A stretch of DNA of 59,182 nt from Arsukibacterium sp. UBA5043 (GTDB lineage Bacteria > Pseudomonadota > Gammaproteobacteria > Enterobacterales > Alteromonadaceae), in contig DIBV01000005.1 in the NCBI GenBank assembly GCA_002415085.1, positions 120,588 to 179,769 on the forward strand. The letters run 5' to 3'. Positions 6,843 to 11,443 of this stretch are shown here, piece after piece (positions within the stretch are counted from its first letter, which is position 1; every line of letters starts with the position of its first letter). The translations under genes were made by a program, and so were the position numbers. The notes beneath the pieces were generated by a model, which searched no databases, was not told the DNA's origin, and saw only the letters and a program-made list of their open reading frames with translations.

Positions 6843-6880
6843 GTTTTAATCAGGTTGGGCGTAAAGCTAGCCTTTTTCTG

Positions 6881-6906
6881 AAACCCATCTTAAGATGGGT
6901 TTTTTA
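6881..6906 (+). terminator. Rho-independent terminator after glgP
   Basis: AAACCCATCTTAAGATGGGT forms a perfect inverted repeat (AACCCATCTT/AAGATGGGTT) followed by a T-run at 6900-6905. Confidence 0.9.
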
Positions 6907-6983: not shown

Positions 6984-7958
6984 GTGTCATTTTTGTTCAG
7001 GAAATTAGTTAGTCAGCTAATGAAAGTGTTGCTGCTCTGCTGTGGCTTAACCGTAATGGTGCAAGCTGCCACCAAGACAAACCTTGCCGATAAAATAACA
7101 AATGAAATTCAGACGAGGCCAAAAGCATCTGAAGAACCTGCAGATAACGACAGGTTAAACTGGGCAATTAATGACGCCCCCCCGTTCCATGTGTTACATG
7201 GCGAATATCAACGCCAGGGTGTATGTGACGTGTTAATCAAAGTGGTCCATCGCTACATGTCAGAAACCCGGCCTAGATATCTGGTAATGCCGCAACCCCG
7301 GATCGCTCAGGCACTGGACAATAGAGAGCCGGTGTGTTTTCCCTGTATGATTTTTAAACCAGAAGGAGAGACCAGAGCCATCTATAGTATGCCCACGCAC
7401 CTTTATTACCCGCATCACATCATTACTGACGAAAATACAGCTAAAACGTTAAGGGCCCTCTATGGTGAACCCATATCATTAGCCGAACTACTGGCAGACT
7501 CTCGCTTCCGGTTGGGCTATCCTTCAGGCAGGCGTTATGGTGTGTTGCAGCCCTTAATAAATGAACAAGACCCCTATCTGGCCCGTTCGGGCCCGGGAGG
7601 CGCTGTTGCCATTTTACACATGATCAGTTCGGGCAGGCTAGACTACACCATTGATTACCCCATGATTGCCAACTATTTTCAGCAGTTATACAGTCGTAAT
7701 ATGGTGACCATTGCAATTTCAGAAAATGATCAGCAGCCGGTGGCTGGTGCAATAGGTTGTGCAAATAACGCCTGGGGCAAGGAACAAATATCAAGGATAA
7801 ATAAAGTCATGCCGCAAATCAGGCAAGATCCGGAGTTTCTGGAAGTAATAAGATTGTGGCACAGCGATGTCAGCAGCATTGATTTTAGCTTTTTCAATGA
7901 GCAGGGATTACGTGCTATTGATGAGGCTGCAGCGGCAACCGAGCAAAATTTAAAATAA
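6984..7958 (+). CDS. Orphan periplasmic solute-binding-like protein (TIGR02285/SBP family 3 type)
   Basis: 324-residue exported protein. An N-terminal signal peptide (basic RK then the LLLCCGLTV core, cleavage near VQAA, about residue 28) precedes a domain resembling the family-3 amino-acid-binding-protein-like TIGR02285 group: WAINDAPPFHVL, a Cys-containing VCFPCM segment, the HHIIT segment, and a periplasmic-binding-like lobe with GYPSGRRYG. The GTG at 6984 has GAGG eight bases upstream; an ATG at 7020 (MKVLLL) is a possible alternative. No ABC permease or ATPase is adjacent, so import is unlikely. It ends 20 bases before the borosin-type methyltransferase and shares its operon, which suggests a sensing role. 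That role is inference. Confidence 0.75.
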   Translation: MSFLFRKLVSQLMKVLLLCCGLTVMVQAATKTNLADKITNEIQTRPKASEEPADNDRLNWAINDAPPFHVLHGEYQRQGVCDVLIKVVHRYMSETRPRYLVMPQPRIAQALDNREPVCFPCMIFKPEGETRAIYSMPTHLYYPHHIITDENTAKTLRALYGEPISLAELLADSRFRLGYPSGRRYGVLQPLINEQDPYLARSGPGGAVAILHMISSGRLDYTIDYPMIANYFQQLYSRNMVTIAISENDQQPVAGAIGCANNAWGKEQISRINKVMPQIRQDPEFLEVIRLWHSDVSSIDFSFFNEQGLRAIDEAAAATEQNLK

Positions 7959-7978
7959 AAGCGAAAGTGGAGAAACAC

Positions 7979-8779
7979 GTGCAGCAAACAGGCAGTTTAG
8001 TTTGTGTCGGTACCGGTATGACATTAGGCTCGCATATTAGTCCATTAAGTCGCAGCTATATTGAACAAGCCGATGTGGTATTTTTGTTAGTCGCTGACGG
8101 CATTACGGAACAATGGGTAGGCGAGATGAATAACGATGTTCGCTCGTTGCAGCCTTATTATCAGACCGGGGTGTCGCGGATGCTTAGCTATCAGCAAATG
8201 GTCGCGGCGATATTAAGCGAGGTAAGGCTTAATAAAAGAGTAGTGGGGGCGTTTTACGGTCATCCAGGGGTATTTGCCTGGGTACCGCATAAAGCGATTG
8301 CCGAGGCGAAAGCTGAAGGCTTTGCCGCCCATATGGAGCCAGGCATTTCGGCAGAGGACTGCCTGATAGCCGATTTAGCAATAGACCCTGGCACCTATGG
8401 CTGCCAGCATTTTGAAACCAGCCAGTTTATGTTTTATAAACGTTGTATTGATACCGCAGCATATCTTATTTTATGGCAGGTTGGGGTGGCGGGGGATCGC
8501 AGCCTGGCTAAGCGTGGCACGGATGGCCGTTACCGGCAGTTACTTATCGACTTGTTAGCGGAATATTATCCGTTAAACCATCAGGTAATATTGTATGAAG
8601 CGGTAACCTTACCCATTCAGCAGCCGCGGATCACAACTTTGGCGCTGGCTGAGCTGGTGAATGCCGAAATGGATCCTAAAACGACCCTGGTGATCCCGCC
8701 GGCGACTAAAATGGTCGCCAACCAGCAAATGCTGGACAAACTCGCCGCGCTGCAGGCTGATGATGCCAACTATCAGTAA
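7979..8779 (+). CDS. sonM: Split-borosin peptide alpha-N-methyltransferase (SonM-like)
   Basis: 266-residue tetrapyrrole-methylase-fold enzyme that I assign to the borosin family. These enzymes use SAM to methylate backbone amides of a precursor peptide. The SAM site is seen as CVGTGMTLGSHIS (about residues 9-21), FYGHPGVF (92-99) and EPGISAEDCL. The borosin catalytic set is present with correct spacing: Tyr60/Tyr61, Arg67, Tyr71 and Tyr93; in OphMA, as I recall it, the Tyr-Arg-Tyr-Tyr steps are also 6, 4 and 22. Unlike fungal OphMA it has no fused core, and it matches split enzymes such as Shewanella SonM in length. GTG 7979 has GGAG six bases upstream; an in-frame GTG at 7967 lacks this. 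The symbol is borrowed from SonM. It overlaps the next gene by 20 bases. Alternative reading: a cobalamin-type methylase, which the context makes unlikely. Confidence 0.88.
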   Translation: MQQTGSLVCVGTGMTLGSHISPLSRSYIEQADVVFLLVADGITEQWVGEMNNDVRSLQPYYQTGVSRMLSYQQMVAAILSEVRLNKRVVGAFYGHPGVFAWVPHKAIAEAKAEGFAAHMEPGISAEDCLIADLAIDPGTYGCQHFETSQFMFYKRCIDTAAYLILWQVGVAGDRSLAKRGTDGRYRQLLIDLLAEYYPLNHQVILYEAVTLPIQQPRITTLALAELVNAEMDPKTTLVIPPATKMVANQQMLDKLAALQADDANYQ

Positions 8780-9308
8780 TCTGCTTAACCATAGCGTTTG
8801 TTTTGACACGCCGTTGTTGCGGGTACGAAGAATGGTGGCATCTGATCAAACGCTTTACTGGCAACTTTATAGTAGTAAAGAGGTAATGCAATGGATTGCT
8901 GAGCCATTAACGGATGCCCAGCTAAACACCAGTTTTGCCGCGGCGCTGCACCATAACAATGGAGCATTGAGCGAGATGGCAGTGGAAAGCCGGCTTTATA
9001 TGGTTATTGCCGCACGGCCAGCCGAGACAGCGGTCGGACTAATGGCTGTCACCTTCAAAGCGGACGATGCAACAGCCGATTCTGTCACCGTTACCGCAGA
9101 GGTTGGCATTATGCTGTTGCCTGCTGTTCAGCGCAAAAGACTGGCTCACGAAGCCTTAACTGGCTTGTTTCAGACGCTGTCTCAACTGAGCGTCGTAAAT
9201 AACATCGTATGTAATATTGCTAGTGACAATCTGGCCGCAAAAAAGCTGGTTAGCGGCCTTGGCTTTGTGTATTGTGAGAACAGCAATGACTATAAATTGC
9301 AAAAATAA
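8760..9308 (+). CDS. GNAT-family N-acetyltransferase in borosin operon
   Basis: 182-residue GNAT protein of the RimJ/RimL (Acetyltransf_3) type. It has an N-terminal LLRVRRMVASDQ strand-helix, the central beta strand EVGIMLLPAVQ leading into the acetyl-CoA pyrophosphate loop QRKRLAHEAL (motif A), then NIASDNLAAKKLVSGLGF (motif B), which is typical of this subgroup. The start at 8760 (ATG ATG) lies inside the methyltransferase gene, 20 bases before its stop, so translation is probably coupled. Its position between methyltransferase and precursor suggests it could acetylate the modified peptide or confer self-protection. That is inference. A housekeeping protein acetyltransferase is the alternative. 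Confidence 0.85.
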   Translation: MMPTISNLLNHSVCFDTPLLRVRRMVASDQTLYWQLYSSKEVMQWIAEPLTDAQLNTSFAAALHHNNGALSEMAVESRLYMVIAARPAETAVGLMAVTFKADDATADSVTVTAEVGIMLLPAVQRKRLAHEALTGLFQTLSQLSVVNNIVCNIASDNLAAKKLVSGLGFVYCENSNDYKLQK

Positions 9309-9339
9309 TAACTAAGATAACGATTTCAGGACGTTCAGC

Positions 9340-9630
9340 ATGAATAGTAATGTATTACAGTTGTTACAACGGTTGGGAGAGGATGCGACGCTGCGCCATC
9401 TGGCAGATACTCAACTGGAACAGGTTGTTAACCCGTTAAATTTCGACCCGGCAATCCAGCAGGCAATATGTCAGCATGACGATATTAAATTAGCACAACT
9501 GCTGCATGCCAATAATAAAATTGTCTGTATGATCTTACCAGCTGAAGAACCGAAGCCTGACGATGAACCCGCAAAGCAGCCGGAAGATACACCCGAACCT
9601 GCAGAGCCTGAAATTAAGCGGGTGGTTTAA
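9340..9630 (+). CDS. sonA: Split-borosin precursor peptide (SonA-like)
   Basis: 96-residue protein with an architecture like SonA. Residues 1-57 form a helical leader (VLQLLQRLGEDATLRHLAD, a helix around NPLNFDPAIQQAICQ, then DDIKLAQLLHAN), resembling the borosin-binding domain. A short beta-prone hydrophobic stretch follows (residues 60-66, KIVCMIL), then a 30-residue Pro/Glu/Asp-rich tail. In Shewanella SonA, the methylated residues lie in a similar hydrophobic stretch right after the helical leader, at about the same residue number. AGGA at 9328-9331 is placed eight bases before the ATG. The gene sits 31 bases after the GNAT gene in the same operon. Product structure, cleavage site and activity are unknown; the symbol is borrowed. 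Confidence 0.85.
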   Translation: MNSNVLQLLQRLGEDATLRHLADTQLEQVVNPLNFDPAIQQAICQHDDIKLAQLLHANNKIVCMILPAEEPKPDDEPAKQPEDTPEPAEPEIKRVV

Positions 9631-9664
9631 TTAAAAGAGAAGTAAAACACAGCAGACTGAGCGG

Positions 9665-11443
9665 ATGAAAATTATTATGGTTGGCGCTGTGCTGTTGCTA
9701 AGCCTGCTGGTTATTGTACCTGCAGGTTTTGCAAACGAGCCTGCAATATTGGCAAAGAGTCCTGCAGCTGAGCAAAATCTAACTATTCGACAACAGTTAA
9801 CCTACCTGGACAATATTAGACTGGAAGATCAATCGCAGTTTAAAGCCGGATTAGCCAGGCTAAGGCAATTACCTTTATCTGAAACTGCGGATATTGAGTA
9901 TTTAATGTTGCTAAATGCTTATGAACAGGCTCTGCTGGGGCAATATGATGGGGTATTGCCGCTACTGACTCAATTACTGGATGTCTCCTCAGATTCGACA
10001 ATGATTATTAAAGCCCGGATGTTGGCTGTTAATGTCTTACTATTGTCAAATAACCATAAGCTGGCATTTTCCCACTTTGAGCAGTTAACCAATTCTATAT
10101 CTGCGATTACTGACCCGGTGTTAATGGCGCAGGTTATTGTTTTAGTTATGTTTACTTATAACCAGCTCGAGCGTTATGATTTATCGCTATTATATTTGCG
10201 CTACATTGATTTTAATTCGATATCCCCTAAATTAGCGTGTCGGATCAACGTTATTGCACTTGAAGCAAAATTTAAACACACTGACAGTATTGCTACCGAA
10301 AATGAAACAAATACTGTGGTAGATGAATGTGTGGCGGCCAGAGAATTCATTCCTGCTAATATTGCCAGACACCATTTGATGCAGTATTTCTTGAAAAATA
10401 ATGAACCCGCTAAAACGTTGGCTATTTATCAGCAATACATTACGCAGATAGAACAAACACATTATCCAATGCTGATATCGCAAGTGTCAGTTCGCGCGGC
10501 ACAAGCTCAGCTGCAGCTTGGTAACGTGCAGCAGGCTGCTATGTTATCGACTGAGGCGTTACTTGTGGCTAAAAGCAGTCCAAATAACGTTGCGCTGGTC
10601 GACGCTTATGCCACCTTATACCAGATTGCGAAGCAGCAAAAAAATTATGCGATGGCTTTGCAGTATCTGGAACAACAGTATCAGGTAGAAGAAGAGTTTA
10701 ACGCCGGTAAAGCGAAGCAGCAAGCGGCTTATCATACGGTTAAATCTGAGATTGAATTAAAAAACCAGCGGATTAACTTACTGGACAGAGATAACGAACT
10801 GTTGTTTTTACAACAAAGCATTTATCAGGAAGAGGTAAAAAACAGTCGTTTACTGCTGCTGTTAGCTGCGTTAATTGGCGGAATTGCCCTGCTGCTGGCA
10901 TACCGCGGTCTGACTGGCCGTAGGCGTTTTAAATTAATGGCAGAGTTTGACCAACTGACCGGTATCAGTAACCGCTACCATTTTAATAATCAGGCCAAGC
11001 AGGCATTAAAGTATTGTCAGGCCAAACACTTGCCGCTGGCGATGATCTTGTTTGACCTTGATCACTTTAAAACCATTAATGACCAGTTTGGCCATGCTAC
11101 CGGAGACTGGGCACTGCAGCAGATAGTGCAGGCATGTAAGCAGTTTATGCGATCCAACGACATATTTGGTCGGATTGGTGGTGAAGAATTTGCTATTATG
11201 ATGCCTGGTTGTGAATTAGATAAAGCAACCTTACTTGCCGAGATATGCCGGGATGCCATTACCAGTATTGATTGCAATAGTACTGAACATCAATTCAGCC
11301 TGAGTGCCAGCTTTGGTGTCAGTGGCAGTAATGTCAGCGGATATGATATCAAGCTGCTATTGGCTGATGCTGACAAGGCCATGTATGAAGCGAAAAGCCG
11401 GGGCCGCAATCAGGTGGTCGAATATCAGAAAACTGATCAATAA
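9665..11443 (+). CDS. Membrane TPR-like sensor diguanylate cyclase (GGDEF)
   Basis: 592-residue protein. It has a signal peptide or N-terminal membrane anchor (about residues 1-23), a long helical region with TPR-like repeats (about 30-370), a short coiled coil, one transmembrane segment (LLAALIGGIALLLAY, near 398-415) and a C-terminal GGDEF domain (about 425-590). The active-site motif is GGEEF within GRIGGEEFAIM, with the metal-binding FDLDHFKTIND upstream. An RxxD product-inhibition site (RSND) sits five residues before GGEEF. It should therefore make c-di-GMP and be feedback-controlled. It starts 34 bases after the precursor gene and is probably the last gene of the operon, with the TPR part facing the periplasm. 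Confidence 0.9.
   Translation: MKIIMVGAVLLLSLLVIVPAGFANEPAILAKSPAAEQNLTIRQQLTYLDNIRLEDQSQFKAGLARLRQLPLSETADIEYLMLLNAYEQALLGQYDGVLPLLTQLLDVSSDSTMIIKARMLAVNVLLLSNNHKLAFSHFEQLTNSISAITDPVLMAQVIVLVMFTYNQLERYDLSLLYLRYIDFNSISPKLACRINVIALEAKFKHTDSIATENETNTVVDECVAAREFIPANIARHHLMQYFLKNNEPAKTLAIYQQYITQIEQTHYPMLISQVSVRAAQAQLQLGNVQQAAMLSTEALLVAKSSPNNVALVDAYATLYQIAKQQKNYAMALQYLEQQYQVEEEFNAGKAKQQAAYHTVKSEIELKNQRINLLDRDNELLFLQQSIYQEEVKNSRLLLLLAALIGGIALLLAYRGLTGRRRFKLMAEFDQLTGISNRYHFNNQAKQALKYCQAKHLPLAMILFDLDHFKTINDQFGHATGDWALQQIVQACKQFMRSNDIFGRIGGEEFAIMMPGCELDKATLLAEICRDAITSIDCNSTEHQFSLSASFGVSGSNVSGYDIKLLLADADKAMYEAKSRGRNQVVEYQKTDQ

Follow-up and report, generated by a model that had tools for sequence, protein, structure and literature searches.

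A split borosin operon in Arsukibacterium whose methylated peptide may be the ligand of a neighbouring TPR receptor

A five-gene operon of Arsukibacterium sp. UBA5043 (contig DIBV01000005.1) is, with near certainty on sequence grounds, a type IV split borosin operon. We put at roughly 60% the probability that this holds together with a second proposition, namely that a periplasmic TPR receptor has the methylated peptide as its ligand and, in this organism, signals through c-di-GMP. Two observations carry the second part: across the family, the TPR-containing protein stays beside the methyltransferase, and its TPR and membrane part stays constant while its signalling output varies. Coordinates without a locus or genome label are positions in the window, the whole 59,182-nucleotide stretch analysed.

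Operon layout and the split borosin genes

The operon consists of five genes on the + strand, from 6984 to 11443, in the order TIGR02285-like binding protein, methyltransferase (MT), GNAT, 96-aa precursor, and TPR-membrane-GGDEF protein. The features are as follows:

6880..6903, + strand: terminator-like hairpin 5' of the operon, from a pattern scan only (7 sites, against 5.5 expected by shuffling)
6984..7958, + strand: solute-binding-like protein, 324 aa, the operon's first gene (TIGR02285 E 6.8e-34, 117.3 bits against a cut-off of 143.3)
7979..8779, + strand: borosin alpha-N-methyltransferase of the SonM family, 266 aa (PDB SonM E 4.6e-81; TP_methylase E 4.9e-18)
8760..9308, + strand: GNAT acetyltransferase, 182 aa, a possible tailoring enzyme (Acetyltransf_3 E 4.5e-15)
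9340..9630, + strand: split-borosin precursor, 96 aa (its family profile finds SonA first; five predicted helices)
9517..9537, + strand: KIVCMIL, precursor residues 60-66, the predicted N-methylated core (hand-set register)
9665..11443, + strand: TPR-membrane-GGDEF protein, 592 aa (GGDEF E 5.9e-44; AlphaFold2 mean pLDDT 92.2)

The MT starts with a GTG at 7979, and an alternative in-frame GTG lies at 7967. The gene 5' of the operon is, by its appearance, presumably glgP-like, and the gene 3' of it is of the AstE/AspA type. Between 6500 and 12000, nothing scored above the gathering score of any RNA family; the promoter scan gave no signal (12 sites found, 9.4 expected), and neither an exporter nor a protease was recognised among the operon genes.

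A search of PDB sequences with the MT returned 25 matches at E up to 0.001, all of them SonM entries (best E 4.6e-81) or fused fungal-type borosin enzymes, those of the OphMA and MroMA kind matching at E 5e-50 to 1e-41. The preliminary description had singled out Tyr61, Arg67, Tyr71, and Tyr93 together with a GHP motif, and all are where it placed them (the motif being G94 H95 P96). The four residues align with Y58, R67, Y71, and Y93 of SonM, whose alteration is reported to lower activity (PMC8429565), and are invariant in all 18 aligned sequences. With these equivalents and its 266 residues, the enzyme fits the SonM type (~263 aa). Among the relatives, MT genes fused to a GNAT domain were seen in an uncultured Steroidobacter MAG (L093:5911-7365) and in Povalibacter uvarum (L101:6001-7356), and a 1174-aa open frame (L152:4839-8363) has as its sole Pfam match an N-terminal TP_methylase at residues 70-211. 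Some MT matches carry in-frame stops (G917:C1:41940-42704, G934:C1:330610-331374, G961:C1:384651-385415, and G844:C3:303518-304276); in the first three of these genomes, a stop-free copy lies within 3 kb.

As a single query, the 96-aa precursor found no PDB match up to E 1. The profile of its family (79 relatives, including its own sequence) placed seven distinct SonA sequences (E 2.1e-7 to 2.5e-6) at the top of its PDB matches, and the match that follows them has an E of 0.5. AlphaFold2 places helices at residues 2-14, 16-20, 23-33, 37-44, and 48-55 (mean pLDDT 77.2, with a low-confidence tail), and the protein divides into a leader of approximately residues 1-55, a core region, and an acidic, Pro-containing tail. 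For SonA, the leader is described as a five-helix bundle of residues 1-53; the profile match to SonA and the five predicted helices mark the precursor leader as a five-helix borosin-binding domain. A Foldseek search with the precursor model ranked SonA chains first and second, but at E 2.0 and 2.2, which is weak alone. The helical leader followed by a hydrophobic stretch, as noted before from the sequence, is thus recovered, the stretch being residues 60-66 (KIVCMIL). If the linker contains no indel, an ungapped register, set by hand from alignments, predicts that the methylated L63 and I65 of SonA would fall on M64 and L66 of the precursor. Many relatives, not all, have an (I/V)C-x-x-x-PAE-like motif at the core, and Cys is present in 92 of 126 distinct post-leader windows. 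Two Rhodanobacter loci (L074:6838-12728 and L077:6944-11757) have five and three precursor genes, respectively, with differing core sequences and two receptors each.

The MT and the precursor are separate open reading frames (7979-8779 and 9340-9630), as a type IV split borosin requires, and both lie on the + strand within the interval 7979-9630 that had been given for them. The earlier proposal of a split borosin system of the SonM/SonA kind therefore finds support in the sequence, the catalytic residues, the profile of the leader, and the order of the genes, and backbone N-methylation as the chemistry of the locus is well supported by homology. The competing idea that the MT is a tetrapyrrole or diphthine-type methylase next to an unrelated 96-aa open reading frame shares with ours the fold family PF00590, but it is extremely improbable, given that the borosin residues are invariant in MT relatives and that the precursor profile matches SonA. 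The first refuting outcome named in the preliminary description, a best match to a CobI/CbiL-type or diphthine methylase, did not occur: the PDB matches of the MT up to E 0.001 comprise SonM and fused borosin enzymes only, and we reject such a methylase on that ground.

The closest described system is SonM/SonA of Shewanella oneidensis (PMC8429565; PDB 7LTC and others), a type IV split borosin that shares with the window a separate MT of similar length, the catalytic residues, a helical leader, and a core that follows a short linker. The window MT shares 50% identity with a SonM orthologue (in L127). The window operon differs in its GNAT gene between MT and precursor, in the binding-protein gene in front, and in the precursor end, which is short in SonA but here has a core with (I/V)C-x-x-x-PAE followed by a long acidic tail. 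The fused borosins of fungi (OphMA type) have an MT domain homologous to the window MT, but their precursor is fused to the enzyme.

The preliminary description had regarded the operon's composition as not known; this does not hold, since the arrangement is the common one in relatives and a published scheme of borosin types already includes a GGDEF domain. The order MT-(GNAT)-precursor-TPR/GGDEF recurs in Rheinheimera, Alkalimonas, Shewanella, Rhodanobacter, Dyella, and others, so that the composition is the family norm and not an oddity. A locus with a SonA-like precursor (L145; E 6.7e-26 against SonA) also has a TPR-GGDEF neighbour, and it is from this locus that the likeness is known. According to the legend of Figure 1 in PMC11395268, a GGDEF domain forms part of that scheme; therefore, a GGDEF link is already known for at least one borosin type. 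In the borosin literature searched, diguanylate and tetratricopeptide are not mentioned and histidine kinase occurs only in an unrelated passage, while its main texts lack the tags of the sonM/sonA neighbours (SO_1477, SO_1480, and SO_1481); the TPR neighbour may have been noticed elsewhere.

A TPR sensor linked to the methyltransferase

The protein encoded by the last gene, hereafter the sensor, has a hydrophobic N-terminus, helical repeats at approximately 33-327, a long helix at 328-427, and a GGDEF domain at 426-583. Its hydrophobic segments are 1-30, 144-165, and 391-418; the second lies inside predicted repeat helices, and the third is spanned by the long helix, which links the repeats to the GGDEF domain in the AlphaFold2 model. 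The GGDEF domain has GGEEF and RxxD (MRSNDIFGRIGGEEF; PF00990 E 5.9e-44), and with these motifs intact, the protein is a predicted diguanylate cyclase. In a Foldseek search with the sensor model, the best 50 matches listed are all GGDEF structures such as WspR, with no informative match to the TPR part among them. A pair of Cys residues in neighbouring helices is conserved in 121 of 126 sequences and is compatible with a periplasmic disulfide. A likeness exists to RcbA/RcbB of Vibrio vulnificus, in which, according to the passages of PMC12282931 consulted, a TPR domain controls a GGDEF cyclase by repressing it and a partner protein de-represses it; that system differs from the one proposed here in its predicted cytoplasmic location and in having another TPR protein as the partner, and those passages mention no borosin.

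Within the window genome, the full sensor has 47 matches, 46 of which are to the GGDEF side only, and its N-terminal 412 residues have one (the sensor profile A4 gives two). Therefore, the linkage described below concerns the TPR part and not GGDEF genes in general. That a common GGDEF gene lies there by chance is ruled out by the co-occurrence of the TPR part with the MT.

To start with, 111 sources (110 loci and the window) were picked by similarity to the window MT. Single-sequence searches found the GNAT in 92 of them, the precursor in 94, and the GGDEF protein in 110; with profiles, the precursor was found in 105 of the 111 and, after 19 further loci were added, the sensor in 130 of 130. 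The sensor lies within 3 kb of the MT in 144 of 151 MT sources. When near-copies are counted once, 118 of 126 distinct MT genes have a TPR sensor no more than 3 kb away, which shares the MT strand in 117 of the 118 cases; the loci behind this count were mostly picked by similarity to the window MT. In each of the 127 MT-bearing sources with a precursor match, a precursor precedes a sensor on the same strand, and 0-36 bases separate the two in 101 of 141 such pairs. The MT sources that lack a nearby sensor are L136-L141 and L152, and a truncated second MT in L064 also lacks one.

The MT was found in 10 of 369 genomes drawn from the class and in 15 of 398 drawn from the phylum. The sensor lies beside the MT in 4 of the 10 MT genomes of the class draw (window included) and at 16 of the 17 MT places of the phylum draw; among the loci newly fetched from both draws, 13 of 20 have it. 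In these draws, the MT profile score is at most 285 bits where the sensor is absent and at least 320 bits where it is present, which assigns the sensor link to the SonM-like group and not to all borosin-like enzymes; the MTs that lack it, those of 6 of the 10 class-draw genomes included, are of more distant types.

Among 60 relatives, 35 genomes have both MT and sensor, 3 the MT only, 1 the sensor only, and 21 neither (p 5e-12); in each of the three MT-only genomes, the profile does detect a sensor (L127, L125/L126, and L121). With 5 kb as the limit, an MT match is near 51 of 53 sensor matches in these relatives, and a sensor match is near 45 of 51 MT matches. For 295 genomes of the order, we called a sensor strong if, among the matches listed, it scored at least 137 bits. 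By this measure, 71 genomes have the MT and 71 a strong sensor among the matches listed, with 68 having both, 3 the MT only, and 3 the strong sensor only (Fisher p 4e-59). Among the matches listed, 113 of 125 strong sensors are within 5 kb of an MT and the other 12 are not; conversely, 95 of 107 MT matches are within 5 kb of a listed strong sensor, and for at least 3 of the remaining 12, a weaker match is listed close by. Although MT-adjacent copies went into the sensor profile, what it scores is sequence, not place. At a looser threshold of E 1e-20, it matches in 104 of the 295 genomes, so weaker TPR relatives occur without the MT.

The TPR and membrane part is constant while the output is GGDEF, a histidine kinase, or none. 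Among 126 full-length sensors, 116 contain GG(D/E)EF. Of the ten that do not, seven have HisKA/HATPase_c, in some cases together with receiver and Hpt domains (L121, L125, L126, L129, L134, L135, and L151); the remaining three are that of L122, with a GGDEF domain lacking the motif, that of L131, and one of L147. Output-less TPR proteins stand in tandem, two or three of them 3' of the MT, beside an MT and a 70-73-aa precursor at four loci:

L153:4799-6979: tandem output-less TPR proteins
L154:3495-5675: tandem output-less TPR proteins
L155:4388-7909: tandem output-less TPR proteins
L163:3657-5845: tandem output-less TPR proteins

A hydrophobic N-terminus, by a threshold that we set, is found in 6 of the 7 output-less proteins of L153-L155. 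In an MT tree of 67 rows, one supported group (99/88) comprises 61 rows, of which 60 have the sensor; the exception (L140) is a long branch. Supported branches force at least three changes of the histidine-kinase label, and all label changes amount to nine if the labels "none" and "other" are counted; the label "soluble" of L132 is a product of a broken frame. At that locus (L132:5517-7265, genome G005), a stop codon breaks the receptor gene, and the MT and precursor remain. The gene order precursor-sensor-MT occurs in L111-L119, L122, and L123, and a joint duplication of precursor and sensor is seen in four Rheinheimera loci (L038-L040 and L108) and one MAG (L049). We regard the TPR domain as the partner of the peptide chiefly because it is kept as outputs change and because precursor-sensor pairs are duplicated.

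Accessory genes and a candidate leader protease

Homologues of the solute-binding-like protein occur in 11 sources including the window, in 10 of them on the MT strand, and it is possibly an accessory binding protein.

In 26 of 153 sources of a redundant set, the MT is flanked on its side by a pepsin-like gene, for example L080:3481-5316; the other loci are L025, L061-L063, L065-L067, L069, L072, L075, L076, L078, L079, L081-L084, L086, L087, L089, L099, L104, L106, L124, and L147. The main pepsin cluster is on the MT strand in 24 of 24 cases, typically upstream, and Pfam confirmed PF00026 in L080 and L147. Of the 34 genomes with PF00026 among the 295 of the order, 28 contain the MT as well (p 2e-14), and 14 of 35 PF00026 genes are within 5 kb of it. 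Bacterial pepsins have been called intracellular in print. The pepsin-like protein is a candidate leader protease in the lineages that have it; PF00026 has no match in the window genome, which leaves it unsupported as a maturation enzyme in this organism.

Proposed role and alternatives

We propose that the SonM-type MT would bind the helical leader of the precursor and add alpha-N-methyl groups to a few backbone amides of KIVCMIL; such methylation of a precursor core is reported for SonM/SonA (PMC8429565). At the time of that description, none of the split borosins had been linked to a final product. The GNAT may acetylate the precursor or product, and a protease would free the latter. The product would then reach the periplasm, where the TPR domain of the membrane protein encoded by the adjacent gene would recognise it, and the long helix would relay the signal to the GGDEF domain, changing c-di-GMP. 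The borosin would thus be a signal rather than an antibiotic. We infer peptide binding by the TPR domain from linkage and output swapping, to which sequence topology adds the periplasmic placement and the relay.

Some findings count against a receptor: the operon's lack of a recognised exporter or protease, the MTs without a nearby sensor listed above, and sensors without a nearby MT, namely the 12 of 125 strong ones among the matches listed and those of L130 and L131. The latter two are receptor genes (L130:6233-7966 and L131:6923-8671) with neither MT nor precursor nearby; that of L131 precedes the same two genes that follow the window operon and is remnant-like. A test of core-sensor co-evolution as support for ligand binding was negative, showing nothing beyond shared descent: once MT, GGDEF, and leader distances were taken into account, the correlation of core and sensor distances was gone (partial -0.001; a value as high in 159 of 300 permutations).

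This absence, the sensors that occur without an MT, and the shared operon with its close spacing would also suit a TPR-GGDEF protein that merely controls borosin production or shares its regulation, with the TPR domain sensing something else. We regard such a role as unlikely, since it leaves the near-complete co-occurrence over 295 genomes and the retention of the TPR part, when the output becomes a histidine kinase or none, to be accounted for. The stand-alone output-less TPR proteins, two or three in a row beside the MT (L153-L155 and L163), could instead point to a periplasmic carrier, a maturation scaffold, or a self-protection factor; this is quite improbable, because most sensors are fused to a signalling output, either GG(D/E)EF or, in most of the others, a histidine kinase. 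Peptide reception by the TPR domain is the reading that we prefer, and the family-wide TPR partner probably reflects a peptide-signalling role.

More tentatively, and at slightly less than even odds, SonM-clade borosins may be signals for dedicated periplasmic TPR receptors whose output can be exchanged (c-di-GMP, a phosphorelay, or free binding proteins), with methyl groups that perhaps aid membrane crossing and with cytoplasmic pepsins, encoded immediately upstream in several lineages, that would release the peptides. With a near-constant, receptor-like partner whose outputs can be swapped, the role of these borosins becomes testable and points to signalling, in this organism through c-di-GMP. 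If true, this would give ribosomal backbone N-methylation a use in signalling, and it may give bacterial pepsins a substrate.
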